A stretch of DNA of 64,000 nt, from assembly GCA_031272775.1 (NCBI GenBank), contig JAISTB010000007.1, positions 1 through 64,000 of the forward strand. The letters are read 5' to 3'. A program made the position numbers and the translations under genes. The DNA is from Fusobacteriaceae bacterium (GTDB lineage: Bacteria > Fusobacteriota > Fusobacteriia > Fusobacteriales > Fusobacteriaceae). A model generated the notes under the pieces. That model ran no database searches. It was not told the DNA's origin and was given only the letters and a program-made list of their open reading frames with translations. Positions 22,225 through 39,100 of this stretch are shown piece after piece. The stretch's first letter is position 1; the number at the start of each line of letters is the position of its first letter.

Positions 22225-23814
22225 ATGGAAAGCATTGTCCGGGATCGGGATGGCGCGCTGTGGGAAGGGATTTCCGCAGAGACATCCGAAGCGCTGTTTG
22301 GCCGCACGACCGAGACCGCTCTGAAAAGGGGCGGCGGGTTTGCCGTGGCCAAATTTTTCCTTTTTGTCCTCATGCTCTGCGGGACTGGCTTCCTGACGAA
22401 ATTTTACGCGCTCCACGACGCCGGACGTTTCGTGGAAGGAACCACGATTAACGGCATTGACTGCGGAAATCTGACCTACGCGCAAGTGGACGCGGTCCTG
22501 AAACAACAACATGCAGATTATCGTCTGGCGCTCCGCTTCCGGGACGGGAACGAAACGACGCTTGTCGGCGCCGAGTTCGGCTACGCCTATGAGACCGGGG
22601 AACTGGCCCGCAGGATCCAGGAAGCCCAGACGCCGAAGCATTACGCCATCGGCCTCTTGAGCAGATATCCGGTCGCGAAATATTTGCGCAAACCGGAAAA
22701 CCTGAAACGCTATGAAGACTTGACCGCCATGCTCAAGCAGGAGGTCTCGGGGGAGATTGTCTACGACAAAGATCTGCTCCGGGAAAAGCTTGCCGCCCTG
22801 GTGGATGAAACGCAGCAAGGCCGGGCGACGGCCCCGCGGGACGCCTATCTTGACTATATCGACGGGGAATTTACCGTCGTAAAAGAAACGGCGGGGAATC
22901 TCATTGACCGGGAAAAAGTCCTCGACTATGTCCTCCAAAAAATGGAGCAGGGGGAAACGGCCGTCGATCTGGACGCGCCCGGCATTTATGCCGAAGCCGC
23001 CGTCAAAAGCGACGATCCGGAGCTGACGTCCCAAAGGGATACGCTCAACGACCTCGCCCGGGTCAACATCACCTATGAATTGCCCAACGATGAAAAACGG
23101 GTCCTCGACGGGACCATCGTCAAAAATTGGCTGAGCCGGGACAATGACGGCAATCTCTATGTATCGGAGCATGAGATCACGGAATACATCAGCGAATATG
23201 TCGATGAACTCGCCAAAGAACTCGATACCGTAGGCGTAGACAGGCCCTTTATCTCGACGCTTCAGGGGGAAATCCAGGTCGGCGGCGGGACCTATGGCCG
23301 GAAGCTCGACAAAAAGGCCGAAATCAGACAACTCAGAGAGGAAATCCTCGCCAAAGTAAACATTACCCGGGAACCCAATTACCTGATCAAAGAATTTTCC
23401 GACGAAAACTCGGGTTTGGGCCGGACCTATATCGAGATCGACCTGACGAACCAGAAGCTCTGGTATTATGTCGACGGGGAGCTCTTCCTCGACACGCCGC
23501 TTGTAAGCGGGACGGCCGTCGACAAGAAGCGCAAGACGCCGGGCGGGATCTACACGCTGGTCTACAAGGAAAGAAACCGCGTGCTGCGGGGAGAACGCCG
23601 GGAAGACGGCACTTACGAATATGAATCGCCCGTCAGCTACTGGATGCCCTTCAACGGGGGAATCGGCCTGCACGACGCCACCTGGCGCGGCCGCTTCGGC
23701 GGCAGGATCTATCTGACCAACGGATCCCACGGCTGTATCAACCTGCCCGCGAAAAAGGCCGAGGCCATTTACGGAATCATCGACAAAAATGTACCGATCG
23801 TGGTATTTTATTAA
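22225..23814 (+). CDS. L,D-transpeptidase (YkuD) with peptidoglycan-binding domains
   Basis: 529 residues. A cytoplasmic tail of about 40 residues, a membrane anchor near 42-60, then extracytoplasmic PG-binding-4-type regions (GTTINGIDCGNLTYAQVDAVL and a second, more diverged unit) and a C-terminal YkuD domain from about 395. The catalytic signature is SHGCINLP near 505, with the upstream histidine in GIGLHDA. The family makes 3-3 peptidoglycan cross-links or anchors proteins to peptidoglycan. A run of G at 22206-22211 is the only ribosome-site candidate and is rather far (13 bp). Single-gene unit with its own promoter and terminator. Confidence 0.9.
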   Translation: MESIVRDRDGALWEGISAETSEALFGRTTETALKRGGGFAVAKFFLFVLMLCGTGFLTKFYALHDAGRFVEGTTINGIDCGNLTYAQVDAVLKQQHADYRLALRFRDGNETTLVGAEFGYAYETGELARRIQEAQTPKHYAIGLLSRYPVAKYLRKPENLKRYEDLTAMLKQEVSGEIVYDKDLLREKLAALVDETQQGRATAPRDAYLDYIDGEFTVVKETAGNLIDREKVLDYVLQKMEQGETAVDLDAPGIYAEAAVKSDDPELTSQRDTLNDLARVNITYELPNDEKRVLDGTIVKNWLSRDNDGNLYVSEHEITEYISEYVDELAKELDTVGVDRPFISTLQGEIQVGGGTYGRKLDKKAEIRQLREEILAKVNITREPNYLIKEFSDENSGLGRTYIEIDLTNQKLWYYVDGELFLDTPLVSGTAVDKKRKTPGGIYTLVYKERNRVLRGERREDGTYEYESPVSYWMPFNGGIGLHDATWRGRFGGRIYLTNGSHGCINLPAKKAEAIYGIIDKNVPIVVFY

Positions 23815-23818
23815 AAAA

Positions 23819-23850
23819 CGGACCCACAGTCACAGGGTCCGCTTTTTTTT
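23819..23850 (+). terminator. Rho-independent terminator of the L,D-transpeptidase gene
   Basis: Perfect 7-bp stem CGGACCC/GGGTCCG, 9-nt loop, followed by C and eight T. Most of it lies inside the left copy of the 75-bp direct repeat. Confidence 0.9.
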
Positions 23851-23895
23851 GTTGATTTTGAGTGAATTAAATTTTTTTGTTCCTTTACCTTTGCC
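23821..23895 (+). repeat. Left 75-bp direct repeat (DR-L) bounding the restriction island
   Basis: From GACCCACAGTCACAGG to CTTTACCTTTGCC, this segment is repeated at 31940-32013 in the same orientation. The only difference is one T in the T tract (eight here, seven there). Sequence on either side of the two copies is unrelated. Confidence 0.95.
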
Positions 23896-23905
23896 TTTTT
23901 TGTTA

Positions 23906-26563
23906 TCAATCAATAAGATTCGTTTGATACATAGATCTGCTCGTCTCCAATATCTTTGTTTTCATAATATCGCTGCCCGCATACATCTTATACTCGACTC
24001 CGCTTGCTACTGCCATCTCACTGGCGGCTGCCGCTTTTGCCTTGACAAGGTCGTCGTCAATCATATTGTCGCCTTTAACCTCGATAAGCTGATAAGAGCC
24101 GTCTGTCATCTCGGCAAGGAAGTCCGGATAGTATTGGCGAATTCGCCTTGATTCAGGGTCATAATATTGAATCGACAGATCGCCTTGATTGCTTGTGAAC
24201 ATCCCTGTAAAGTAGACCCGCTTCACTTTCTCTCCATTCGTTACATATTGAAGGAAGCACTCCTTTTCAGGTTTTGAGTCAAAACAGTAAGTATCAGCGT
24301 GGAAGCTCCGAGCGACTTCTTCCGGCGTAAATTGAGGATCTGCCTTCGTTACGACCAGTTCAGGCTTGCCGGAGAACTCGTAGTAGCCGCCCTCTTTTGG
24401 CTCTTTGAGGAGGATGAGTTCGCGGTCTTCTGACTTGACCTCGCTTTTGACCTCAAACAAGGTATGAAAAATCCGGGGGATAATCACGTCGTCGAGTATT
24501 TCATTATACTTGTTAACGGCTTCTAAGACGGCTGTTTCACCGTCTCTGGATTCCCTTATAATTCGAGCCGCGAGGATTGGCGAGATGTTCAGATAGCGGG
24601 AAATCTCTCCGGCAAGAGAAAAGGCGCTGTAGCGCATCCGCTCTTTCAGGTGGTCAATATTCGTCTCCTTGATGCTCATGTCGTGGGAGATGGAGTCTTT
24701 CTCATACATTATCGAGGCGTACTTTGAAAAATCCGCGCCTTCAATCGCAAAGTCAACCGGGGCATTGTAGCCTTTTTCGACAAGACTGTATTCCCGCCAA
24801 ATGCGTTTCAGTTTTATCGTTCTTGGCGGCGGAAGAACCATGACCTTGTAACGCCGGGATTTGTCGGCGCTTGATTTCGTCATATCCTTGATGTCCATAT
24901 TGAAGTTTTTATTCAGTTCGGCATCGAGGATATCGTAGTTCTCTTTTGAGAGAAAGACTGTGGCGGTTAGCTGTTCGGTCGTTATTTTCCGCAAGCAGCG
25001 CATAGTCGCTTGGAGGACGAAAATCTTGGACTGCGGGCTGCGGAACATCGCCACGCCGAAAAGCGATCGGCAGTTCCATCCTTCGCGCCCCTTGCCGACA
25101 AGGATGAGGATCTGTTTCTGGCTGCCGAGAGTCCCCGGCACATCAAGGTCGTTGAAGTTGCGGATGTCTTCGTTCTTTGTAATCTTCTCATCCCCGACAT
25201 TGACCAGAATCTTGTCGGTCGGAACGCCGATGTCTGCAAGGATACGTTCCACGAGCGGACGGACTTCCTCGTCGGCTTCTTTTATTGTTGTGGCGAAGAT
25301 GGCCAGCTTCGGAGGCAATCCCTCGAAAGTCTGCCCACCGTAGGTTTCCCAAAACGTCGTAACAACAGAGCGGAGAAACTCTCTACTCTTTACGTTCTCA
25401 TAAGCTTTCAGGTCGGCGTCTTTCAGGAAGCCATTCTGAATGGATTCCCGCAAGCCGTAGGCGTAGACTACCTCCGGCAGCAGTTGTTTGTTTACATAGG
25501 GCGTGCCTGTGTAGTTGTAGCAAGCGACAATGGACGTGCTTTCCGCAAGCATGTTGATTGTGTCGCGGAGGCTCGTTTTTTGACCATTCGTAGCGCGAAT
25601 CTGCTTCTCCAAGTCTGCGCCGAAAAGGTGATGCGCTTCATCGACATATACGCCGAGTTGATTAAGGCGGCATAGTTTTTTGAAGCGTTGATTATCCATC
25701 AGCGAGGAATCATCCTGCACGTCCTCGTCGTCTTCATCGGCGCCGTAAACGGAAAACAAAAGAGAGCTTTGTTTGAAGAGTTTTTCAGCAGGTTTGTCAG
25801 CTTTCCGCTTCTTTTTGACGATAATCTTCTGTGTGTTTGAAATGATGATGTTGAAATCGGAATCGTCTTGTGTAAGATGCGTCGTCCCGCTCTCATCAAG
25901 GAAATGAAACTTGATGTTGGCGTCCAGCGCCTTGGCGTATTCATTCGGTACAACAAGCGTTTTATCAAAAGTGATAATCTCACGAAGTGACTGGAGCACG
26001 GTCTTGTCGGGCGCAAAGACGAGCGCATTATGGCAGAATCGCTTATCCTTTGGATATTTATTCGCCAAAAGGAACTCATAGAAAATGCAAGTCGCCATTA
26101 GGATGGTCTTCCCGAGTCCCATCGTCAGCGCGTAGATATAGTTCGGATACTCCTCTTTGTACTTCTTCATCTGCTTGAAGAGAATATCAGTCTGTTCCGC
26201 TACAGCATCGGGCAAATAAACCTGCTTTCCGTCAGCCGTTATTCGAACCGGCAACGCCATCTGTCCGTCTCTGCGAATAGAATAATAAGACGCGTTTGAG
26301 AATCGATCCCGCTTATTACGCCAATCATCGAAGATTTGAAACATTTGCGCATTATCTAAAAACTCCTTGATAAAGACATAGAGCTCCAAGGCCTCGAATT
26401 GCGGCCGACGCAAAAAAGCGGTTGGATTTTCGTCACAGTCGTTGTAGGCGAGGAACTTCCGGGTCAGGTCGTTATAGCGTGAGCGAATCTTGCGGCGGTT
26501 TGCCTTGTAGTACATCAGCAATTGCTCATAGAAAGCGAAATTGTCGGTCGTCTCGAAAGCCAT
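23906..26563 (-). CDS. SF2 helicase-nuclease, type III restriction (Res)-like subunit
   Basis: 885 residues. An N-terminal region of about 140 residues precedes the helicase: Walker A TMGLGKT near 147-153, DEAH at 308-311, TGT at 352-354, and a second RecA domain with LVGKGREGWNCRS and QATMRCLRK. An acidic insert (ADEDDEDVQDD, near 275-285) sits between the Walker motifs. The C-terminus carries a PD-(D/E)XK nuclease: Pro-Asp at 813-814 and Glu-Val-Lys at 828-830, followed by KAKAAAASEMA. This is the domain order of type III Res subunits, which translocate or switch on ATP and cut DNA when paired with Mod. ATG at 26563 overlaps the mod stop codon by one base (TGATG), so the two are translationally coupled. 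Assignment as Res is firm in kind; the exact subtype is unknown. Confidence 0.82.
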   Translation of the reverse strand: MAFETTDNFAFYEQLLMYYKANRRKIRSRYNDLTRKFLAYNDCDENPTAFLRRPQFEALELYVFIKEFLDNAQMFQIFDDWRNKRDRFSNASYYSIRRDGQMALPVRITADGKQVYLPDAVAEQTDILFKQMKKYKEEYPNYIYALTMGLGKTILMATCIFYEFLLANKYPKDKRFCHNALVFAPDKTVLQSLREIITFDKTLVVPNEYAKALDANIKFHFLDESGTTHLTQDDSDFNIIISNTQKIIVKKKRKADKPAEKLFKQSSLLFSVYGADEDDEDVQDDSSLMDNQRFKKLCRLNQLGVYVDEAHHLFGADLEKQIRATNGQKTSLRDTINMLAESTSIVACYNYTGTPYVNKQLLPEVVYAYGLRESIQNGFLKDADLKAYENVKSREFLRSVVTTFWETYGGQTFEGLPPKLAIFATTIKEADEEVRPLVERILADIGVPTDKILVNVGDEKITKNEDIRNFNDLDVPGTLGSQKQILILVGKGREGWNCRSLFGVAMFRSPQSKIFVLQATMRCLRKITTEQLTATVFLSKENYDILDAELNKNFNMDIKDMTKSSADKSRRYKVMVLPPPRTIKLKRIWREYSLVEKGYNAPVDFAIEGADFSKYASIMYEKDSISHDMSIKETNIDHLKERMRYSAFSLAGEISRYLNISPILAARIIRESRDGETAVLEAVNKYNEILDDVIIPRIFHTLFEVKSEVKSEDRELILLKEPKEGGYYEFSGKPELVVTKADPQFTPEEVARSFHADTYCFDSKPEKECFLQYVTNGEKVKRVYFTGMFTSNQGDLSIQYYDPESRRIRQYYPDFLAEMTDGSYQLIEVKGDNMIDDDLVKAKAAAASEMAVASGVEYKMYAGSDIMKTKILETSRSMYQTNLID

Positions 26564-28434
26564 CACCACTTCACCTCCACTTCCAGAGATTCGGAAAGCA
26601 AATCCGTGATCTTGACCTTGACTGTCCCCGCTTCCTTCGGAATACCGTAAACGCCGTTCACGATTTCTTTCTTCCCCGGAATGTCCATCACGGACGGTTG
26701 CATGACGCCATCATAGTTCCAGTCAATCATGATGGATTCCACAAGCTGTCGCCAATCCTCGACATACTCTTTTTGGAGCGAGAGCTTCTGCATGAGGTTG
26801 AGCGGATAGAACGCCCTGATGACTAGGCGGTCGCCCTCAATGGCGATGTCAGCCTCGGCCTCTCGCTTGAGTTGGAGGTCGGCCTTGTCGCGCAAGATGT
26901 CCACAATCTGAATATCCAGTTTATATCCGGCCACCTCGCTTTCAGAAAAGGCAATCTGCAAATCCGGTTCATGTCCCATGCAAACGATGGTGATTCTCTC
27001 CACCGGCTCGTCCGGGGCCTCGCTTTTTCGCTTTTCGTACAATTTAAACGGCAGATTCGCAATCAGTTCTTCCGAGTCCGCTTTCGTGGCGATGCGATTG
27101 ACAGGCATGATCTTAACCATCCGTCCATCCAGTTCTCCATCCCAGATTTCCGTTTGCGGGAAAGGTTGAATGCCTAGAGCTTCTATCAGTAGATCACGGG
27201 CTTCTATCGGATTACGGAAGAATTCATAATTATTGACATTGTAGACTTCGAATCCGGTATAGAGCGCGGAATCGTCTGATTCATCGGTTTCTGCATCGTC
27301 AGTTCTGAATTTGTCAGGATCTTCTGCAACCATAAAACCTCTCGAAGGCGGAACTTCATATATGTCCGCTCCTTTCTTGCGGCTTTCAGTGAGTGTTGGC
27401 AGCGTAGCATCTACCACAACAGATGTAAGTTCAGCGGCAAGGGAAATAAGCCGCTTCGTCGTGGTTTGGATAGCGCCGAGGTTGATGTCCGCGCCGATAA
27501 ACCTGCGCCCCAGCTTCATAGCGACAGCTTGCGTCGTGCCGCTGCCCATAAAGCAGTCAAACACAAGGTCGCCGGGGTTAGATGATGCTTTAATTATTCG
27601 TTCAATCAATGCTTCCGGTTTTTGGGTGGGATAATCTACTGACTCTGCATAAGTCTTATTCACAATAGGAAAATTCCAATAATCAGGACAAAGTTTTCCA
27701 TTTTGCTTCATATACGTTTTTGTTACCCTGCCATCAGCCAATGTGTTCTCTTTATATCTCCCATTTTCATCTTCTTTATTAAACCTCTTGAGTGTTGTTT
27801 CTGCGAAAGGTACAAACGCTCCGTTAAATATATAGCTATTCGTTTTCTTGTAAAAAAATATCACATCGTGTTTTCTGCCGAAACACTTTGAACTGTCCGT
27901 ACCGCCAGTATAACACCAAATAATTTCATTGAGAAAATTGTCAATACCAAACACTTCATCACAAATACATCGTAAATATCCACTTTTGTGCCAATCACAA
28001 TGCAAATAAATACTCCCTTTGTCCGACAGTAACTCGCGCATAAGGATAAACCGTTCGTACATGAACTGGAGATACTCATCATTTGTCCAGATATCACCAT
28101 ACTGCTTTTCTTCAAATGCGTTTACATCACTCATCGCCTTAACGCCACGAAGCGTAATAGTTTTTTTATACTCCGCCTTGGAGTCGAACGGCGGGTCGAT
28201 ATAGATAAGGTCTACCTTACCGCGAAACTCCTTCATGAGGTGGCTCATCACTTGGAGGTTGTCGCCCCAGAAGATTTTGTTAATCCACCCGTCCTGCTCC
28301 TCGCCGTAGCGTTCGCGGAGCTGCGCGGGAAAATACTGCGTAGAGCGGTAGGGGCGCTTGCCTGTCCACCGCAGTTCGGGGAAGCCCTTAATCGTTGGGC
28401 GCTCCGGGAATTCAAAGGTCATTTGCTCATTCAT
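26563..28434 (-). CDS. DNA adenine methyltransferase, beta class (type III Mod-like)
   Basis: 623 residues. The catalytic motif DPPF (residues 80-83) comes before the SAM-binding motif FMGSGT (295-300), with YPTQKPEALIERI (motif X) at 268-280; this order defines beta-class N6-adenine or N4-cytosine methylases such as type III Mod. The target-recognition region should lie between, at about residues 140-270. A long C-terminal part (about 330-623) has no motif I recognise and may contact Res. The stretch 27601-28020, matching the recognition region, has only about 35% G+C by my count, against about 54% in the 240 bp encoding the following segment. ATG preceded by GAGGAGAGGATA. Second gene of the operon. 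Confidence 0.85.
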   Translation of the reverse strand: MNEQMTFEFPERPTIKGFPELRWTGKRPYRSTQYFPAQLRERYGEEQDGWINKIFWGDNLQVMSHLMKEFRGKVDLIYIDPPFDSKAEYKKTITLRGVKAMSDVNAFEEKQYGDIWTNDEYLQFMYERFILMRELLSDKGSIYLHCDWHKSGYLRCICDEVFGIDNFLNEIIWCYTGGTDSSKCFGRKHDVIFFYKKTNSYIFNGAFVPFAETTLKRFNKEDENGRYKENTLADGRVTKTYMKQNGKLCPDYWNFPIVNKTYAESVDYPTQKPEALIERIIKASSNPGDLVFDCFMGSGTTQAVAMKLGRRFIGADINLGAIQTTTKRLISLAAELTSVVVDATLPTLTESRKKGADIYEVPPSRGFMVAEDPDKFRTDDAETDESDDSALYTGFEVYNVNNYEFFRNPIEARDLLIEALGIQPFPQTEIWDGELDGRMVKIMPVNRIATKADSEELIANLPFKLYEKRKSEAPDEPVERITIVCMGHEPDLQIAFSESEVAGYKLDIQIVDILRDKADLQLKREAEADIAIEGDRLVIRAFYPLNLMQKLSLQKEYVEDWRQLVESIMIDWNYDGVMQPSVMDIPGKKEIVNGVYGIPKEAGTVKVKITDLLSESLEVEVKW

Positions 28435-28463
28435 AAATTTATCCTCTCCTCGAACAAAATTAT

Positions 28464-31325
28464 TTACTGGTTTCCACAGTAGAAGCGGAAGTCGCAGGCG
28501 CCGCAGGTCTTCGCGGAGGAAGCCTTCTGTGTATACTCTTTCCGCAGTATCTTATGAACCGTATCGTCAAACGCGGCAATAGTGGCGTCGATTGCCGTCT
28601 TTTGATACGGATAGATAATCGTCGGCATTCCGCCCTCTTCGCCCGTGTAGTAGAGGTTCATCCTGCTCACCTTCTGCCCTGTCCGTTCCTCCACAAGGTG
28701 GGCGTAGACTTGAAGCTGGCGGCGGTAGTGTTCGAGCCGCTCGGCGTCCTTGAAGATGTCGGGCTTCTTCTCTGACTTGAAGTCCACGAGTTCGACCGTG
28801 TCGCCCTCGCCCTTTATGAGGTCAATCTTACCTTCGATGATGTAGTCGGGCTTCACGAGTGAAACATCGACCTCCGCTTGCTGGATAAGACCCCACGACC
28901 CCGCCTGCCGCTCGGCATAGCGCAGAACCTGCTTCAAGGCGGCATTACGCTGCGGTTCAGCGAGGTAAGTCCGCTCGCTCTTCGTCAGCGAGGTATAATT
29001 TGAGTCAAACCACCCGATAATGTTGTCCGACTGGATGAGGTGTTCCTCGTGCCGGAGCGCGGCACGGTGGATGTCCTCAATCGTTTGGTGTACGAGCATA
29101 CCAAATAACATAGCATTCACACGGACTGGTGCAAATTCCAGCTCCTTGTAGAACTTGTACTGGAGCGAACAGGTCTCGTAAACGGTGATGTGCGACGTGA
29201 ACGAGAACGTGTCTTTGAGGTTCACATCCTTCACGTCCTTGAAGTCAAACTCGACAAGGTCGAGAGCGTCTGCGTCGGGCAGTTCCTCGTAGACCTCTCG
29301 GAAGTACATCGACGGGGTGCGCTTATCCTCGTTGCAAGTCAGAACAAGCAAGTCCTGCGCCCGCGAGAACGCTGTATAATAGAGTCTCCAAAAATCAAAA
29401 TATTTCGTTTGGTCATACGGCTCAAACGCAGGACGCTTGTAGTATTTATCTTCCACGACCTCGATGAGGTCTTTATATGCCTTGCGCGGGATATTGCCGA
29501 GGGAGTCCACGAAGACAATCGGGAACTCCATCCCCTTCGATTGGTGAATCGTCAGGAACGAAACACAGCCACTCGGCGCGTATTCGGCGTCGTCTTCATA
29601 CTCGGAGATGCCGCCGTCAAAGAGCAACCGCAGATAGAGGTTGAAGAACCGTTCCGTGTTGGTATCTATCCACTTGGCGTTAAAGATATCAACGCGGTGC
29701 AAATACTCGAACTTATTCACGACTTGCGTGAAGAGCGCTATGTTTCGTGCAGGCCGCATATCTATCAAGCCGCCTCGCATATCCGTCCCGAGAATAGTGG
29801 CAAATGGAGCAAACTCAAACATCTGGTAAATCAGTCCGGAGTACGCATAATCCGTATTCTCTTTCAATCTGGCATGAAGCTTTCCGCGACGGCGTATCCA
29901 GTTTCTGAAGTCTGCGGCTTCGGCCGTTTCGAGATAAGTGTTTGCCGCAATTACACAACCACGGTAGTATTCATAGTGCTCGGGTTGGAGAAACTTGAAC
30001 GTCTCATCTTCAAGCCCCATCACATATTTCGGGAACACCAACATGAGGCAACCAATCATCAATCGAATCTCCTCGCGTTGGAAGAACATATCCGAGCGCG
30101 GCGAATAGACGTTGACCCCATTCTCTTCCAAGTATTGGGCGAGTTTCGCGACCCGCTTGTGCTTTACGGAGTTGAAGAGAAACGCTATCTGGTTATAGTC
30201 GACCAGTTTCCCTGAACCCATCAGGTCGTGTATGAAGCCGAGAATCTTCTCGCACCACTCGTCCATGTCTTCGCAGCTCGCCAATTTTACGACCGCCGGA
30301 CTTTTCAGGGTTGACTTGGCGTGAGGCTCAATGGTCTTATCGTAACGGAACTTGTTCCATCTGAACCGAAAACGTGCGCCGTCCGTCGTCGCCATCCACC
30401 CGTTGTAGAAATCAATGATGTCACTGTTTGAACGGTAGTTCACCACGAGCGGGATAATCTTGCACTCGCCCTCGGCAAACTTCGCCGGAAACTCAAGGAT
30501 ATTACGGATAGTCGCGCCACGGAATCGGTAGAGACCTTGGTCGTCGTCTCCCACGACACAGATGTTCTTATGATTGCCTCCAAGCAGGAAAACAATCTGC
30601 TCTTGGATATAGTTCGTATCTTGGTACTCGTCTATCATGATGTACCGAATCTTGTTCTGGATTTCGGCGAGGATGGACGGGTTGTTCTTCAGAAGCCAGT
30701 ATGCCTCCGTCTGAATGGCGGAGAAATCCATCAGATTATTTTCCGATAGAACTTTCTGATAGATTTCAAGCACACTCCCCAGTGCTGCAATTTGAGGATT
30801 CGGATCGGCTTTTAAGTCAGTTGGATCGACCAACTCCTCCGTGAGGTTGTTTACGAATTCACAGATATCTCCCGCTTGCCGCCAAGCGCCGCTATTCGTA
30901 AGGATAGAGTCGATATCAGGGATGTTACGAAATTTATGGATATTCTGGAAGACTGTGTAAGACTGGTCAAATTGATCGAGCATCCGATAGTTCTTCCTCA
31001 GACGTGTATATTCAAGGTGCTCTTTAATAATCCGCAGACAAAGCGAATGAAACGTGCCGATATACATCTCGTTGATATTGGCGACGATGCCACGGACGGA
31101 GAGTTCGTTCGTGATTCGGGTCACGAGTTCCTTGGCGGCTTTCTCGGTAAAGGTTGCCATAAGGATTTGCTCCGGCTTGACTCCGCGCTCCTGAATCAGA
31201 TAGATGGCGCGTTGCACAAGGGTATAGGTCTTCCCTGTGCCGGGTCCGGCGGTTATAAGAACGGGTCCGTCTGCAGACTCGATTGCGATCCGCTGCCCCT
31301 CATTGGCGTTGCCGAAGTTGAACAT
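28464..31325 (-). CDS. UvrD/PcrA-type helicase fused to a RecB/Cas4-like Fe-S nuclease
   Basis: 953 residues. SF1A helicase motifs: AGPGTGKT at 26-33, MATFTEKAAKEL, DEYQDTN at 232-238, DDQGLYRFRGA, IHQSKGMEFP and YTAFSRAQDLLVL. The C-terminal third is a RecB-family nuclease with His746 (LVHQTIE), Asp835 (GKIDLI), Asp848 and Lys850 (VDFKSEKK). Four cysteines (719, 941, 944, 950; the last three as CGACDFRFYC) match the iron-sulphur staple of AddB and Cas4. Such proteins unwind and degrade DNA ends. I chose ATG 31325, which follows AAAGGAGT at 8 bp. First gene of the operon, 29 bp before the methyltransferase, so it belongs to the restriction system and not to general repair. Confidence 0.85.
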   Translation of the reverse strand: MFNFGNANEGQRIAIESADGPVLITAGPGTGKTYTLVQRAIYLIQERGVKPEQILMATFTEKAAKELVTRITNELSVRGIVANINEMYIGTFHSLCLRIIKEHLEYTRLRKNYRMLDQFDQSYTVFQNIHKFRNIPDIDSILTNSGAWRQAGDICEFVNNLTEELVDPTDLKADPNPQIAALGSVLEIYQKVLSENNLMDFSAIQTEAYWLLKNNPSILAEIQNKIRYIMIDEYQDTNYIQEQIVFLLGGNHKNICVVGDDDQGLYRFRGATIRNILEFPAKFAEGECKIIPLVVNYRSNSDIIDFYNGWMATTDGARFRFRWNKFRYDKTIEPHAKSTLKSPAVVKLASCEDMDEWCEKILGFIHDLMGSGKLVDYNQIAFLFNSVKHKRVAKLAQYLEENGVNVYSPRSDMFFQREEIRLMIGCLMLVFPKYVMGLEDETFKFLQPEHYEYYRGCVIAANTYLETAEAADFRNWIRRRGKLHARLKENTDYAYSGLIYQMFEFAPFATILGTDMRGGLIDMRPARNIALFTQVVNKFEYLHRVDIFNAKWIDTNTERFFNLYLRLLFDGGISEYEDDAEYAPSGCVSFLTIHQSKGMEFPIVFVDSLGNIPRKAYKDLIEVVEDKYYKRPAFEPYDQTKYFDFWRLYYTAFSRAQDLLVLTCNEDKRTPSMYFREVYEELPDADALDLVEFDFKDVKDVNLKDTFSFTSHITVYETCSLQYKFYKELEFAPVRVNAMLFGMLVHQTIEDIHRAALRHEEHLIQSDNIIGWFDSNYTSLTKSERTYLAEPQRNAALKQVLRYAERQAGSWGLIQQAEVDVSLVKPDYIIEGKIDLIKGEGDTVELVDFKSEKKPDIFKDAERLEHYRRQLQVYAHLVEERTGQKVSRMNLYYTGEEGGMPTIIYPYQKTAIDATIAAFDDTVHKILRKEYTQKASSAKTCGACDFRFYCGNQ

Positions 31326-31378
31326 ATGATTGACTCCTTTGTTGGCGATTTGCATTCTAGAAGGATTCTTCTTTTGTC

Positions 31379-31397
31379 AATTATGGGAAATAATGTT
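31379..31397 (-). repeat. Operator-like 19-bp site, promoter-proximal copy
   Basis: Plus-strand sequence AATTATGGGAAATAATGTT, the exact reverse complement of 31534-31552. It contains the near-palindrome ATTAT-N5-ATAAT. It lies just downstream of the expected transcription start of the helicase-methylase-nuclease operon. Confidence 0.75.
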
Positions 31398-31415
31398 CAT
31401 CACCATATTGATACG

Positions 31416-31444
31416 ATTATACCATGTTTAAGCCGTTTTGTAAA
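31416..31444 (-). promoter_or_regulatory. Promoter of the restriction-island operon
   Basis: On the minus strand -35 TTTACA (plus 31439-31444), 17-bp spacer, -10 TATAAT (plus 31416-31421) with an extended TGG in front. The leader before the helicase start is about 85 nt. Confidence 0.8.
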
Positions 31445-31533
31445 TATTCGCAGGCTTAAAAAACGTATTTTTTTAATGCGCTAAATTTTCAATTTATCCT
31501 TGATTCAGGCCATTTTTGGAACAACTTCAACTC

Positions 31534-31552
31534 AACATTATTTCCCATAATT
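31534..31552 (+). repeat. Operator-like 19-bp site, distal copy
   Basis: AACATTATTTCCCATAATT, inverted relative to the copy at 31379-31397 and about 130 bp upstream of the operon start, so the two sites bracket the promoter. Either a looping operator pair or the ends of a small 174-bp inverted-repeat element. Confidence 0.75.
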
Positions 31553-31800
31553 ATCAATCGTCTGCATCCCGCTAACAATGGGGATTTTTATTTGTATAGC
31601 CAGATTTACAGGCCACAAATTGTCCACAGTAGAATCCCGCAAAAGCCGCTTTTTATAGCGCTTTGCCTTGGCGCCGAAAATTATGTTGAAATAAAGGCCA
31701 CAGACAGCCCGCGGGATTTGTTTTCCGGCAATAGAACCTGATATTTGGCGGGTGCGACATCTCCATTCGGGAGGTAAGTGCGGAAAAAGGCCGTGAAAAC

Positions 31801-31833
31801 AAAAATCTGCGCCGATTTCGCGCAGATTTTTTT
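31801..31833. terminator. Terminator-like hairpin in the island's non-coding end
   Basis: A 12-bp stem, AAAAATCTGCGC/GCGCAGATTTTT, with a 7-nt loop and a T tract to 31833. It can act in both directions, yet no gene immediately upstream on either strand needs it. Confidence 0.7.
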
Positions 31834-31860
31834 GAAGAAAAGAAAAATTCCTTGGTGTCT

Positions 31861-31896
31861 CCCCTTCGCAAGGGGCGATGTCGGGCTCGCCCGACA
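31861..31896. repeat. Pair of REP-like palindromes
   Basis: CCCCTT-CGC-AAGGGG at 31861-31875 followed by TGTCGGG-CTCG-CCCGACA at 31879-31896 and then AGAGAGGT. The arrangement resembles dispersed intergenic palindromes of Firmicutes and relatives that I know by pattern; only one copy is in this window. Confidence 0.55.
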
Positions 31897-31939
31897 GAGA
31901 GGTCAAAGGCAGGCGAGACGAGCAGTCGTCAAATATAGT

Positions 31940-32013
31940 GACCCACAGTCACAGGGTCCGCTTTTTTTGTTGATTTTGAGTGAATTAAATTTTTTTGTTC
32001 CTTTACCTTTGCC
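31940..32013 (+). repeat. Right 74-bp direct repeat (DR-R) bounding the restriction island
   Basis: Copy of 23821-23895 lacking one T. The outer base pairs of the terminator stem are not retained here (GTGACCC instead of CGGACCC on the left arm), as expected if this copy was made by a recombination that began inside the stem. The HipA-like gene's -10 box starts 8 bp beyond it. Confidence 0.95.
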
Positions 32014-32017
32014 GATA

Positions 32018-32026
32018 TGATATAAT
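32018..32026 (+). promoter_or_regulatory. Extended -10 promoter of the HipA-like gene
   Basis: TGATATAAT at 32018-32026, a perfect extended -10 immediately outside the right direct repeat. No good -35 at 17 bp; a TTGTTC lies at 31995-32000 inside the repeat, 20 bp away. Confidence 0.6.
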
Positions 32027-32058: not shown

Positions 32059-33207
32059 ATGGCCGAATATCCCGTTTTTACCTTAATGCATAAGAACATC
32101 CCGACAGTCGATCTGGAAATTGATTCCAACGGCTTTATTTATCATATTCTCAAAATCCATGACGAAAAGCATCTCCCTCCCGGTATTTCCACTGCCAAAA
32201 ATACCCCTGACCGCGATTCTTTGAACGAATGGCTGCGCAGTCGCTCCATTCCCGCGAGCAGAATGGGCATACAGGAAGTTCTGGAAAAACTGTCGGTCAA
32301 AACGCCGGAACAATTGATCACAAAATGTTTCGGATTGAGTCTCTCCGACCAATACTGGCTCTCTCCGAAAGGATCCGGCTTGAAATGGGAAAACATCAAT
32401 TTTTTTACGAATCCCTTTTCGACAGATGTGGGGAATATCCTGTTCGGACAGGATCCCCGCGGGGATCGGCAGATTGATTTGCTTTCGCCGGACAACACGT
32501 CGGACGGCTGGCTGCAAAAAAAATGGATTATTCAGGAAGGCAGGCGCTGCCTGATCAAGGGCGGGAGCGCCTATTTCAAGCAGGAACCCTATAACGAGGT
32601 GATCGCCGGTGAAATCATGAAGCGCCTCGGCATCCCCCACGTCGAATACCGGCTGATTCAAGATCAAGGCGTTCCATTTTGCGTCTGCGATAATTTCGTC
32701 ACTGCGGAAACGGAATTGATTCCAGCCGCCCGGGTTAAAGATCTCTTCAAACGAAACAACAGCGATTCGCGCTTAACGCATTTCCTGAAATGCTGCGATA
32801 TTTTGGGCATTCCGGATGTGGCGTCGTCCCTTGATCAAATGCTGGCGCTGGATTTTCTCATTTCAAATGAAGACCGCCATTTCCACAATTTCGGATTCCT
32901 CCGAAAGGCCGAAACCCTCGAATGGATAGGCATGGCGCCGATCTATGACAGCGGAACGTCCCTCTGGCTGAACGCCGAACGGGTCGGGCAATCCGTACAA
33001 TGTAAGCCTTTCAGAAAAACCCATGATGAGCAAATCGCTCTTGTCAAGGATTTCAGCCGGTTTGATCCCGAACGGCTCTCCGATATTGAAGAAGTGATCT
33101 TGTCGACGTTCTCCTCTTCGAGGACGATTCCGGCGGAACGCCAAAAGGATATTGTCGCCGCCGTCAAGGTTCGGATTTTGCGCTTGGAGAAGATGGCGGG
33201 ACGGTGA
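32059..33207 (+). CDS. HipA-like serine/threonine kinase, orphan
   Basis: 382 residues. Kinase features of the HipA family: ATP-lysine in LIKGG (Lys167), NEDRHFHNFG (residues 270-279) holding the catalytic Asp272, and IYDSGT with the metal-binding Asp297. The first 150 residues are not a typical HipA N-terminal domain and I do not recognise them. No HipB-type DNA-binding antitoxin is encoded on either side, which is unusual for a HipA toxin; it may act with a distant partner or not be a toxin. ATG at 32059 preceded by TGGAGAG. The last 44 bp overlap, tail to tail, the end of the DUF1537 kinase gene on the other strand. Confidence 0.75.
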   Translation: MAEYPVFTLMHKNIPTVDLEIDSNGFIYHILKIHDEKHLPPGISTAKNTPDRDSLNEWLRSRSIPASRMGIQEVLEKLSVKTPEQLITKCFGLSLSDQYWLSPKGSGLKWENINFFTNPFSTDVGNILFGQDPRGDRQIDLLSPDNTSDGWLQKKWIIQEGRRCLIKGGSAYFKQEPYNEVIAGEIMKRLGIPHVEYRLIQDQGVPFCVCDNFVTAETELIPAARVKDLFKRNNSDSRLTHFLKCCDILGIPDVASSLDQMLALDFLISNEDRHFHNFGFLRKAETLEWIGMAPIYDSGTSLWLNAERVGQSVQCKPFRKTHDEQIALVKDFSRFDPERLSDIEEVILSTFSSSRTIPAERQKDIVAAVKVRILRLEKMAGR

Positions 33208-34471
33208 GATACCGCGTAATCCCGTCGATCACATCCACATCCCCGAATCCGCCGGCCTTGGTGACGATAACCGGCGAAAGGGCCGGATCTCGGCCTGTGG
33301 TTTTGGCGATCACGACGCCCGGGGCGATTTCTTCCAGCGGGAAGATCCCGTCGCAGCCCAATTTTTCGATGATCCCGATCAGCGTATCGCCGCCAAAGAC
33401 AACTAAATTTTTGATTTTTGAACTCTTGAGGATCTCTTTTACCAGAAGACCGACCCGGTCCGCGATCCGCAGGCCCAGCTGTTTCGATTCGATCCCCTTT
33501 TCCCGGGCGTAGGTCTCCGTTTTTGCCAATTCCCCGTAATCTCTCAGCGTCCGCACAAGCATCTTTCCCTTTTTGCCGACTTCCGCGGCAATTTTTTTCG
33601 CAAGAGCGGTAAATTCAGGCGTTTCCGGGAAATCCGGATCGAGGATCTCCCGGGATTTCAGCGTGTAGCTCGAAAATCCATGATCCTCCGCGTAGTTTGC
33701 CTGATCGACGGAAATCTGGTTTACGCTGCCGCAGAGAAACAGAAAGCGCCGATCCTCCAAGACGAGGGCTTTTTCTTTTTCAGTAGCAGGCGGAATCCAT
33801 TCCGAAAGCACTTCGGCAAACCCCGCGCAACCTGCCGTATGGCGCAATTTCCCCCGCTCTCCCAAACATTTTCCGATTTCCGCCAGATCGGCGTCGGTTT
33901 CCCCGTCGCAAACGCGGATTGTCCCCGACTCATGAGGCGGCAAATCCTGTCCGGGATCCTCTCCTTTTTCGCAAAGAACTACCGCGCAGGGGCTCTGGGC
34001 CGCCAGGATTTTTATGACCTCACTTTCGCGCACGGGATTGAGGGGATCCCTGGCGAAGACCGTCTCCGCCAGGGGGACGCCGTTGACGTAATGGATGCCT
34101 TTTACGGTAGTTCTGCCGCTCTTGGGCAGAGCCGGTACAAAGATCACTTCAGCCGTCCCAAGCCCTTCAAGAAAGCCCGTCACCTCTGCGCCAACATTGC
34201 CGCGCAGGGTGGAGTCGGTCTTTTTGTAAAAAAAGCAGCCGGGTATATTCCGGAAACGCGCGGTCAGGGCGCGGACTTTCTCCCGGGCCGCCTCAGGCCT
34301 GTCGTGGCGGCTTTCCGTATCGACAACGAGAACCCCGGTCCCCGCCGGGACCGACTCCGGGCCGATGCTTTGATCGGCCGTCACCAGCGTCGGGACGCCC
34401 TTTTTTGAAAATTGGACCCCCGTATCGAGGGCCCCGGTAAAATCATCGGCGATAATGAGGAGCTTCAGCAT
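33164..34471 (-). CDS. Four-carbon acid-sugar kinase (DUF1537; D-threonate/erythronate kinase)
   Basis: 435 residues, full length. The N-terminal domain begins LKLLIIADDFTGALDTGVQFSKKG and contains FYKKTDSTLRGNVGAE (substrate side); the C-terminal nucleotide-binding domain has VVFGGDTL near 385 and KAGGFGD near 415. The family phosphorylates four-carbon aldonic acids at O4. It overlaps pdxA2 by 7 bp (ATGCTGA), so both are made together; this pair is the known D-threonate module (DtnK-PdxA2), with D-erythronate or L-threonate as alternatives. ATG 34471 has AAAGGAA upstream. Its 3' end is overlapped by the convergent HipA-like gene, and no terminator is visible between them. Confidence 0.88.
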   Translation of the reverse strand: MLKLLIIADDFTGALDTGVQFSKKGVPTLVTADQSIGPESVPAGTGVLVVDTESRHDRPEAAREKVRALTARFRNIPGCFFYKKTDSTLRGNVGAEVTGFLEGLGTAEVIFVPALPKSGRTTVKGIHYVNGVPLAETVFARDPLNPVRESEVIKILAAQSPCAVVLCEKGEDPGQDLPPHESGTIRVCDGETDADLAEIGKCLGERGKLRHTAGCAGFAEVLSEWIPPATEKEKALVLEDRRFLFLCGSVNQISVDQANYAEDHGFSSYTLKSREILDPDFPETPEFTALAKKIAAEVGKKGKMLVRTLRDYGELAKTETYAREKGIESKQLGLRIADRVGLLVKEILKSSKIKNLVVFGGDTLIGIIEKLGCDGIFPLEEIAPGVVIAKTTGRDPALSPVIVTKAGGFGDVDVIDGITRYLTVPPSSPSAKSEP

Positions 34472-35541
34472 GTCAATCCATTCCTTTTGCCGCATTTTCC
34501 CCTACTCTTTTTTTGCCGCTCCACCGCAAGCCGGATCGCGTAATCCACAGCGCTTTTCAGGCTTAACGCGTTGGCGGTTCCCTTCCCCGCCTGATCGAAG
34601 GCCGTTCCGTGATCGACCGATACGCGAATGATGGGTAGCCCCAACGTGATATTGACCCCCTGCACCGCTTCCCATTGCGCTTTTTCCTTGTTGTAGACAA
34701 ACCCGACCAGTTTCAAGGGGATGTGCCCCTGATCGTGGTACATGGCAACCACGATGTCGTACCATCCGCCTCTGGCCTTGGAAAATACCGAATCAGGCGG
34801 GATCGGACCTTCGGCATTGATCCCTTCCGCTTTCGCGAGGGCAATGGCGGGGATGATCTCCGTCAGTTCTTCCGTTCCGAACAATCCGTTTTCTCCGCTG
34901 TGGGGGTTGAGACCGGCGACACCGATCTTTGGCGTCTGGATTCCGAGATCCCGGCAGGCGGCGTCCGCCAGTCGAATGACTTCGAGGACGCGGTCTTTTT
35001 TGACCCTGTCGCAGGCTTCCCGCAAAGATACGTGGGTGCTGATGTGTATGACTCGCAGATTTTCACAGGCAAGCATCATCGCGTATTTTTTTGTTCCGGT
35101 GAGCTCGGCGTAAATTTCCGTGTGCCCCGCGTAATGATGGCCTGCCAGATTCATGGCTTCTTTGTTCAGCGCGTTTGTTACGGTGGCGTCCACTTCCCCC
35201 GACAGGGCAAGCTCGATTGCGCGTTTTACATATTGGAATGCGGCGTTTCCCGCTATCGGAGACACTTTTCCGGGAATGAGTTTCTCCCCGTCCACCAGGC
35301 GCAAATCCAAAATATCCACTGTTCCGTATTGGAAAAGCGCTTCCGAAACCTGCGCGATCGGATGAATGATCAACAGCCTCTCCCGCAGAATTTCCCCGGT
35401 TTTTTCCAAAACGGAGGCGTCTCCGATCAAAAGCGGCCGACACCGTCCGTACAGGCTTTTTTCCCCGAAGACTTTCAGGGATATTTCCGGTCCTATGCTT
35501 GCCGGATCTCCCATCGTAATTCCGACGATTGGCTGATACAC
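34465..35541 (-). CDS. pdxA2: PdxA-family 4-phosphoerythronate/threonate dehydrogenase (PdxA2)
   Basis: 358 residues, somewhat longer than E. coli PdxA (329). Signature GITMGDPASIGPEI at the start; metal-ligand histidines in HISTHVSL, NPHSGENG and MYHDQGHIPLK; VSVDHGTAFDQAGKGTAN near the end. It oxidises and decarboxylates a 4-phospho-aldonate, giving dihydroxyacetone phosphate when the substrate is D-threonate 4-phosphate. Coupling to the DUF1537 kinase argues for this catabolic role and against pyridoxal phosphate synthesis. GTG start at 35541 behind GGGAGG. Confidence 0.88.
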   Translation of the reverse strand: MYQPIVGITMGDPASIGPEISLKVFGEKSLYGRCRPLLIGDASVLEKTGEILRERLLIIHPIAQVSEALFQYGTVDILDLRLVDGEKLIPGKVSPIAGNAAFQYVKRAIELALSGEVDATVTNALNKEAMNLAGHHYAGHTEIYAELTGTKKYAMMLACENLRVIHISTHVSLREACDRVKKDRVLEVIRLADAACRDLGIQTPKIGVAGLNPHSGENGLFGTEELTEIIPAIALAKAEGINAEGPIPPDSVFSKARGGWYDIVVAMYHDQGHIPLKLVGFVYNKEKAQWEAVQGVNITLGLPIIRVSVDHGTAFDQAGKGTANALSLKSAVDYAIRLAVERQKKSRGKCGKRNGLTC

Positions 35542-35602
35542 GTTACCTCCCTGAATGCTGTCATGTGATCACCTTCGTTTCCATGATTTTTCTCTCATCA
35601 CA

Positions 35603-35631
35603 ATCCTACCTTTTTTTTCGGAGAATTTCAA
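35603..35631 (-). promoter_or_regulatory. Promoter of the pdxA2-DUF1537 operon
   Basis: On the minus strand -35 TTGAAA (plus 35626-35631), 17-bp spacer, -10 TAGGAT (plus 35603-35608), 62 bp before the GTG start. Confidence 0.55.
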
Positions 35632-35644
35632 GCAAAATTTTTCC

Positions 35645-35692
35645 CATAAAAAAACTGTTATAGAATGAGGGCTGTCATCCTATAACAGTTTT
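35645..35692 (-). terminator. Rho-independent terminator of the HU gene
   Basis: 13-bp stem AAAACTGTTATAG/CTATAACAGTTTT with a 16-nt loop. On the minus strand it ends in a run of seven T, 12 bp after the HU stop codon. Confidence 0.9.
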
Positions 35693-35703
35693 GGCTTGCT
35701 TTC

Positions 35704-35985
35704 TTATTTCTTGTTAACGAGAACGCCCAGGTCCTTTCCGGCGGTGAATTTCACAGCCTTTTTGGCGGGAACTTTCATCTCTTTCCCGGTCTGGGGATTC
35801 CGGCAGGTCCTCGCGGCCCGTTCCACTACTTTGAATTTACCGAAGCCGAGAAAAGAAACTTCATCGCCTTTGGCCAGCGCCTTTTCTACTGTTGCTACGA
35901 AAGCAACCGCTTTTCTTTCCGCTTCCGCTTTTGTTGAAAAATCTCCTTCGGCAAAATAAAGATCAACAAACTCTTTCTTCGTCAT
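35704..35985 (-). CDS. hup: HU/IHF-family DNA-binding protein
   Basis: 93 residues, standard HU length. The N-terminal helices (MTKKEFVDLYFAEGDFSTKAEAERKAVAFVATVEKAL) are followed by VSFLGFGKFKVVERAARTCRNPQTGKEM, the beta arm whose RNPQTG segment inserts into the minor groove, and a Lys-rich end. ATG at 35985 follows AAGGAGG. Monocistronic, with its own promoter and terminator. Nucleoid architectural protein. Confidence 0.95.
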   Translation of the reverse strand: MTKKEFVDLYFAEGDFSTKAEAERKAVAFVATVEKALAKGDEVSFLGFGKFKVVERAARTCRNPQTGKEMKVPAKKAVKFTAGKDLGVLVNKK

Positions 35986-36109
35986 GATTGATTTCCTCCT
36001 TAAAATAAAAGTTTCGTCAAGATATGGATGGTTGTCCGTCTTCCGGCGGCAGAGCACAAATTATTTCCGGTACCAGCGCGTAACCATACAACATTAAACA
36101 TCTTTCATT

Positions 36110-36137
36110 ATTATACCATATTTTACGATCTTTTCAA
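36110..36137 (-). promoter_or_regulatory. Promoter of the HU gene
   Basis: On the minus strand -35 TTGAAA (plus 36132-36137), 16-bp spacer, -10 TATAAT (plus 36110-36115) extended by TGG. The leader of about 120 nt includes a possible hairpin region, no clear riboswitch. Confidence 0.75.
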
Positions 36138-36175
36138 GCCCCCAACGCCAATTTTTTGCGTTTTTTTTCACTTTC

Positions 36176-39100
36176 TCAAAAAAGAGACTTTTGATTCGAT
36201 TCGCTCAAGTTGCCAATACACCCCAATTTCCGGAGTTTGTCGAGGATCGTGCCCGACAGCTGCGTCCTTTTTCTGAGGTCCTCGTAGGATAAAAATTCTT
36301 CCTTGCAGCGCTCCTCGACGATCTTTGTGGCGGCCGATTCGCCGAGACCGTTCAGAGCGATCAGGGGGAATCTGATTTTTCCTTCCTCAGGCACGAATTT
36401 TTTCGCGTCGGACTTGAAGAGGTCTATGGGGAGGAAGGAGAAGCCGCGGGCGTTCATTTCCACAATGACTTCGCAAACCGTGAGCGTGGCCTTTTTCTTG
36501 GCGTCAAGGTTGCTTTCCCTGCGCAGGGCCTTGATTTGCTCTTTGACGGCCCCCACGTCCCGCATCAGCTCATAGTTGAAATCTTCGGCCTTTCTTGAGA
36601 AATACGCCGCGTAAAAGGCCAGGGGATAATGGACCTTGAAATAGGCGATCCGCATGGCCATCATGACGTAGGCCACCGCGTGCCCCTTGGGAAACATGTA
36701 CTTGATCTTGCGGCAGGATTCGATATACCAGTCGGGGACGTTTTTGGCGCGCATTTCCGCCGAATGTTTCTCCCATTTGGCCGGATCTTTGGAAGGCTTT
36801 CCCTTCCGGACGAATTCCATGATGTCAAAGGCCTGTTGCTTCGATATGCCGCAGTCGATCAGGTAGTTCATGATGTCGTCCCGGACCGTGATGATCTCTG
36901 AAAGGGTGGCGGTCCCGTTCTTGACGAGCTCCTGGGCGTTGTTGAGCCAGACGTCCGTCCCGTGGGACAGACCCGCGATCCGGACCAGTTCCGTAAAGGT
37001 CCGGGGCTTTGTGTCCTTGAGGATCTTGATGACGAAATCCGTGCCGAATTCCGGTATCCCGTAAGTCCCGATATCGGATCCGATGTCGTCGCCTTTGACC
37101 CCCAAGGGTTCCGTACCCCGGAAAATCTTCAGGGTCTCGGGATCCGTCAGCGGGATCTCATAGACGTCGACGCCCGTGTATTCCTGCAGGAGCTTGATCG
37201 TCGTGGGATCATCGTGACCGAGGATGTCAAGCTTGACGAGCTGGTCCTCCATTTCGTGGTAGTCAAAATGGGTCGTGACGGAATCGCTGGTCTGGTCGTT
37301 GGCCGGTTTTTGGACCGGGCAGAACTCGTAGATGCTCACGTCGTTGGGCAGCACGATCATGCCGCCGGGATGCTGGCCCGTGGTCTTTTTCGCCCCTTCG
37401 ATGAGCTTCGCGAGCCGTTCGATATGGGCGCGCTCGATGGGGATGTTGTTTTCCTCATAATATTTTTTGATGTAGCCGTAGGCGTTTTTCGCGGCCAGGG
37501 TGGAGATGGTTCCCGCCTTGAACACGTTTTCCCGTCCGAAGAGCGTCTCGCAGTAGCGGTGGATCTCGCTCTGGTATTCGCCCGAGAAATTGAGGTCGAT
37601 ATCGGGGGTCTTTTCGCCGTCAAAGCCCATGAAGACTTCGAAAGGAATCGTAAATCCGTCTCTCCGGAGCGGTTTTCCGCATTTGGGGCAGATCTTCTCG
37701 GGCATATCGACGCCGCAGCCCGCTTTATCGGTAAATTCCGAATATTTGCAGTCGGGATTGTCGCAGATGTAGTGGGGGTACAGGGCGTTTACCTCGGTAA
37801 TGCCCATCATATAGGCCACGAGACTCGAGCCCACGGATCCCCGGGAACCGACCAGATAGCCGTTGTCAAGGGATTTTTTCACTAGTTTCTGGGCCGAGAG
37901 ATAGAGCACGGCGAAGTCATTATTGATGATGGCGTCGAGCTCTTTTTTGAGCCGTTCGGAAACGACCTCGGGCAGAGGATCCCCGTAAATCCGGTGCGCC
38001 TTTTCATAGGTCATCTCTTTGATGATTTTTTCGGCGTTTTCGATTTTCGGCGGGAAAAAATCCTCGGGAATCGGGCGCACGTCCTCGATTAAACCGGCGA
38101 TCCGGTTTGTGTTGGCGACGACGATCTCCCGGGCGGTTTCCTCGCCGAGCCAGGAAAATTCGGCAAGCAACTCGTCGGTCGTCCGGAACCAGAATTTGTT
38201 GTCCGTCATATAGGATTCGGGCTTGTAGGCCGTCCCGCCGCCGTAGACGAGAACGCTTCTGAGGATGGCGTCGGACTCGTTGAGATAGTGAACGTCGGAG
38301 GAAGCGGTCACCGGAATTTCGTGCTCTCTGGCGAGGCGGTAAAACCAGCGGTCCATGTCCATGACGTCCGTGAGATCTTTCATGACGCCGCTTCCGCTGT
38401 CGTCGACCAGTTCTGCGTAGGCTCCCATGGGGAGAAATTCGATGTAATCATAGAAGCTGACGCTTTCGGCGGCCTTTTCAAAGTCATAGTGCAGATAATG
38501 GGCGGTCAGTTCTCCGTAATTGAGATTGTGAGCCGTCAGCGCCGAACCCACGAGGAGGCCCTCCCGTTTTTCCTGCAAAAGGGTTTTGGGGATTTTGGGC
38601 TTTCTGTTGCCGTAATAGTCCGTGTGGGCCAGCGAAATCAGCTCATAGAGGTTCCGGAGGCCGGTTTTATTTTTGACAAGCAGGACGCAGTTGTAGCATT
38701 CGGCGTTCTTGATGTTCTTCGGAAAGGCCCCGTCGAAGTCCAGGAGATTTTTTACGCCCTTTTCCCGGTATTTTTCCAGGAAGATCGTGAACATCAGCGA
38801 CGTGGCCTGGGCGTCGTCCACGGCCCTGTGGTGATTTTCCAGCGAAAGGCCCAGGAGCTTGTTGAGGGGACCCAGTCCGTAGGATTTGAGGCCCGGATAG
38901 ATGGCCTTGGCTAACGTCAACGTATCCATGACCGAGGGCCGGAAATCGATCCCGAGGATCTTTTTGGCGTCCCGGGTAATAAAGCCCATGTCAAAGGGCG
39001 CGTTGTGGGCGACCATGGTGGCGTCCCCGGCAAATTCCAGAAAGGCCGGCAGCACTTCGTCGATCGCGGGTTCATTGGCGACCATTTGATCCGTTATGCC

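Follow-up and report, generated by a model that had tools for sequence, protein, structure and literature searches.

A Type III-like restriction operon with a probably invertible promoter, flanked by direct repeats of a transpeptidase-gene terminator in a Fusobacteriaceae genome

The window analysed here, a 64-kb stretch of contig from a Fusobacteriaceae bacterium, carries a restriction island that we read as a composite. An acquired UvrD-Cas4/Type III-like operon would have joined native regulatory DNA, and the combined unit would have inserted downstream of the L,D-transpeptidase gene ldt, with a 75-bp target duplication that includes the ldt terminator; the promoter segment brought along is probably invertible. 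We give this reading a probability of about 70%.

The island is bounded by two direct repeats, DR-L (23821–23895, plus strand, 75 bp) and DR-R (31940–32013, plus strand, 74 bp). Alignment bears out the original prediction that the two are near-identical (74 of 75 positions match, the single difference being one T in a T-run), and flank comparison bears out that the sequences outside them are unrelated to each other. The pair is the sole dispersed near-identical direct repeat of at least 40 nt in the window, where a 32-nt core of the 75-mer has two matches against none expected from shuffles. Searching the whole 2.09-Mb genome returned DR-L and DR-R only; the 75-mer is hence not dispersed through intergenic regions.

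DR-L lies just behind ldt (22225–23814, plus strand; Pfam YkuD 6e-22), the left neighbour of the island. The ldt terminator is an intact hairpin (23819–23841) whose 7-bp stem lies between an A-run and a T-run, a bidirectional arrangement that folds at −14.5 kcal/mol on the plus strand (z −2.85) and −19.1 kcal/mol on the minus strand (z −4.43). The earlier assignment of DR-L as the terminator of the transpeptidase gene holds, short of the two outermost pairs of the stem. DR-R starts two pairs inside the stem, keeping 5 bp of it and none of the A-run, and when folded it is scarcely more stable than shuffled sequence. Because the complete stem and both runs are present in DR-L and truncated in DR-R, we take DR-L as the original and DR-R as the copy. 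The shape of the hairpin fits action on both strands, and in DR-L it is also positioned such that it could end the leftward operon.

Between the repeats are three intact genes, all leftward, in a single operon. The first encodes a UvrD-Cas4-like helicase-nuclease (28464–31325, minus strand; Pfam UvrD and PDDEXK_1), with a Walker A motif, DEYQDTN, nuclease residues D858–K860 and four invariant cysteines; Cas4 is among its matches too. Its ORF opens at 31355, the likely start being 31325, after AAAGGAG (31334–31340). The second product is a 623-residue Mod-like methyltransferase (26563–28434, minus strand; Pfam N6_N4_Mtase 2e-54), in which the DPPF motif (IV) precedes FxGSG (motif I), the order of the beta class; Mod structures, EcoP15I Mod included, are among its PDB matches. 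The third is an 887-residue Res-like protein (23906–26569, minus strand; Pfam ResIII and TnsA-N), combining an SF2 motor (GLGKT, DEAH) with a C-terminal PD-(D/E)XK TnsA-like nuclease. Set against Type III Res, its ResIII Pfam match is just above the cut-off, and PDB searches, a profile search included, found no relative; an AlphaFold model (mean pLDDT 55) was too poor to use. The catalytic motifs of all three proteins are invariant among relatives. We class the operon as Type III-like restriction–modification, with restriction and methylation activities predicted from sequence. Judging by the domains, Mod would methylate, Res would cut unmodified invading DNA and the helicase-nuclease would process the ends. 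One RNA family match in the island fell under its gathering score and was disregarded.

The island had been described as one leftward defence operon plus non-coding DNA, lacking an integrase. This stands for the genes, none of the three encoding an integrase, transposase or recombinase; the non-coding part is not featureless, holding an inverted-repeat promoter (31379–31552) and a multicopy native repeat (31783–31934). The right neighbour is a HipA-like/CtkA-like kinase gene (32059–33207, plus strand; Pfam HipA_C 8e-10, PDB CtkA 4e-07), whose ORF opens at 32026 and whose extended −10, TGATATAAT (32018–32026, plus strand), is immediately to the right of DR-R. The duplicated host sequence at both edges supports the view that recombination between the repeats would restore an ldt–terminator–HipA-like gene order.

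Several lines of sequence evidence support the operon being an acquired restriction cassette: the restricted occurrence of Res, a gene order kept on plasmids and phages, homology that ends at the operon edges, and codon composition. The Res-like protein is absent, at E 1e-30, from 97 other Fusobacteriota genomes. Plasmids of Enterococcus, Phaeobacter, Vibrio, Tunicatimonas, Nitrosomonas and Blastomonas keep this gene order, as does Spirosoma with genes added; operon-bearing plasmids span three phyla, and the operon is also found on phage contigs. Its nearest relatives are phage-borne (72–78% identity in UvrD, 71–73% in Res). Phage copies share 60–78% protein identity, the similarity, that of the DNA too, stopping at the operon edges. 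GC3 is 0.54–0.66 in the operon genes vs 0.69–0.75 in ldt, rnf, trxB and polC, a lowering not confined to the operon, as hipA, pdxA and DUF1537 are low as well. An Acutalibacteraceae phage (PV036426.1, 14466–22619) has the whole operon plus one further gene, with a product of 247 aa, at the end of its linear record. A UvrD-Cas4-like fusion beside Type III Mod and Res was described as a neighbourhood in 2017 (PMC5704561). The same three genes are together here, but the present Res has a TnsA-like nuclease and no detectable PDB relative, and an inverted-repeat promoter precedes the operon.

The original prediction offered, as one of two options, a cassette gained by homologous recombination. Its acquisition is upheld by the missing Res in the 97 genomes; the route is less well served. 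On this route a relative would have supplied the operon next to a copy of the 75-mer, on a plasmid or a DNA fragment that integrated by crossing over at the 75-mer. The operon is common on plasmids, and RecA-type recombination can use 75 bp of identity. Simple homologous recombination is feasible, but the donor must already have carried this host-specific terminator. The island has no plasmid backbone genes, and a search of 2.9 million viral contigs gave no match to the core of the 75-mer. We consider this route unlikely.

Upstream of the operon, a 19-bp perfect inverted repeat has its proximal arm at 31379–31397 (plus strand; ATTAT-GGGAA-ATAAT core) and its distal arm at 31534–31552 (minus strand). 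The arms are 136 bp apart and enclose the best promoter of the region (31416–31444, minus strand; TTTACA-17-TATAAT with TG, 11/12), which faces the operon (ON). A tyrosine recombinase would invert 31379–31552, and the inverted promoter would point away from the operon (OFF). The operon is thus probably phase-variable through an invertible promoter, ON as read here: its defence would be switched on and off, since the inverted repeats around the promoter belong to a family with signs of flipping in this genome. We infer that the restriction promoter flips today. Relatives of the operon elsewhere show no such inverted repeats upstream of uvrD, which suggests that the switch was added in the lineage of the host. 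A second copy of 31379–31552 (78% identity) precedes an autotransporter gene on contig 16 (C16:61681–61853). The distal flank of the window segment is homologous (z 12.7) to that of the C37 locus (85747–85987); relative to the homologous flank, the promoter points toward it in C37 and away from it in the window and in C5.

Inverted repeats with arms of at least 15 bp and gaps of 60–400 bp were scanned for in 615 kb (~29% of the genome), part of it picked for homologous repeats or recombinases; the C5 and C37 pairs come from unbiased scanning. Five pairs were found, and all five flank promoter-like sequences. Among randomised sets, 18 of 20 gave no such repeat and two gave one. Three of the five fit ATTAT-N5-ATAAT exactly. 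The central 5 bp differ among the C7, C16 and C37 pairs and are identical within each, the pattern predicted if the two halves of a recombination site have to correspond. The outer flanks of C5 and C37 are homologous and run the same way (z 13.8), and their inner segments match only when inverted (z 20.4). Promoters of opposite orientation are thus seen at paralogous loci beside homologous flanks, which indicates an inversion of the segment at one of the two loci. The C5 promoter (34420–34657; TTGACA-17-TATAAT, 12/12) faces three GTPase-like genes (35286–38261) with septin, dynamin and AIG1-like Pfam matches. At C30 (23623–23877) the contig stops inside the second arm of the promoter segment, which might reflect both orientations in the sample. 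Outside the repeats, the window, C5, C16, C30 and C37 loci have a TTTGTGGCCTGTA-like motif in one orientation or the other. Two MAGs of congeneric sister species (Md513_bin107 and Pq454_bin26, which we take from their isolate names to be from termite guts) did not show this site type in the ~190 kb sampled per species, which could mean a recent origin of the family or too little sequence sampled.

The 31379–31552 segment could alternatively be a MITE (a promoter-bearing, small non-autonomous transposon) and not an invertible switch. Its 19-bp terminal inverted repeats and the second copy at 78% identity are what such an element would offer. The window and C16 copies, however, differ at matching positions in both arms, the repeat arrangement is common to five promoters, C5 and C37 are oppositely oriented beside homologous flanks, and no clear target-site duplication is visible by eye. 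On balance a MITE is improbable, and we retain the invertible promoter.

The genome encodes five tyrosine recombinases above cut-off and one below; no serine recombinase was found in it. Against models of tyrosine-type DNA invertases, C2:25261–26262 scores best of the six, yet under the model cut-offs. A wider scheme, which we put forward tentatively and hold to be rather doubtful, is a movable defence cassette with its own switch: one recombinase would flip a native promoter family that drives the restriction system, the autotransporter and possibly the GTPase cluster, which would couple phage defence and surface display in a common bet-hedging scheme.

Type III mod genes usually switch by simple sequence repeats. 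Like invertons and phase-variable restriction–modification systems, the loci described here have perfect inverted repeats round a promoter and several members of one family per genome. Where restriction–modification systems undergo inversion, it is mostly Type I hsdS genes that are shuffled (PMC5903667), and invertible promoters have been suggested as a possible control of methyltransferases (PMC10333322). No description of promoter inversion driving a Type III-like operon was found in the literature searched, weak evidence given the limited coverage. If the present reading is true, a Type III-like defence operon was put under a native inversion switch after its acquisition, and a population could retain a fraction of cells that lack protection yet stay receptive to new DNA. 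The loci found also define a family of probable inversion sites in a Fusobacteriaceae lineage that is uncultured.

At the right edge of the island lies a REP-like native repeat (31783–31934, plus strand, possibly to 31948), multicopy and present at about ten places in the genome. This lineage-specific repeat has hairpins and occurs in the window and on C4, C5, C10, C16, C30 and C32; one Y1_Tnp (REP-type transposase) ORF is found at C5:99176–99364. The 600 bp to the right of the operon is composed of native DNA. The repeat runs to within 5 bp of DR-R, one copy aligning 9 nt into DR-R, which suggests that the inserting unit already ended in this repeat. The right-junction match is short and involves that one copy; it is reached by 0 of 2,000 shuffles and 4 of 2,000 random pieces.

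We picture the operon joining the native promoter between inverted repeats and the REP-like repeat, and infer that the promoter was joined before rather than after insertion. The composite would then have inserted downstream of ldt, duplicating 75 bp of target with the terminator, probably through illegitimate recombination or a template switch, with resumption 75 bp behind the departure point. The short match between the REP end (in one copy) and the terminator loop may have aided the junction at the right edge.

The same edge bears on the proposal that the 75-mer is a site for an integrase acting in trans, with the two copies as attL and attR of a tyrosine recombinase. Direct repeats do stand at both edges, and the five recombinases above cut-off are encoded elsewhere in the genome. 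But there is no integrase inside the island, the nearest tyrosine recombinase on the same contig is 84 kb away, serine recombinases are lacking in the genome, the 75-mer has no further copies and DR-R abuts a native repeat; we regard this part of the original prediction as unsupported and highly improbable. An assembly artefact that joined two unrelated pieces at the repeat is conceivable in a draft of 41 contigs, but it is extremely improbable with the 75-mer in two copies only, native repeats inside the island tying it to the genome, and sister-MAG contig names (k119) that suggest k-mers >75, if the assembly was done the same way.

Insertion of restriction genes with target duplication has precedents. 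According to PMC3874152, PMC3031569 and PMC1643837, citing Nobusato et al. 2000 and Furuta et al. 2010, some restriction–modification systems duplicate a target stretch on the order of 100 bp when they insert. Features shared with those accounts are restriction–modification genes, direct repeats of about that length derived from the target (75 bp here, DR-L being the intact ldt terminator), no transposase, and flanks that removal of the insert would restore; the present insert differs in also holding a native promoter and REP-like DNA, and in belonging to Fusobacteriaceae, not Helicobacter. The island fits this known kind of insertion. It would add one more case, from a gut lineage that has received little study, to what restriction genes are already known to do; the probable promoter switch is the more important part. 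In both sister species the HipA-like gene is absent and the neighbours of ldt differ from those in the window, synteny being broken. Elsewhere in the window, positions 69–1522 form an imperfect 225-bp direct repeat array, likely inside a repetitive coding sequence.
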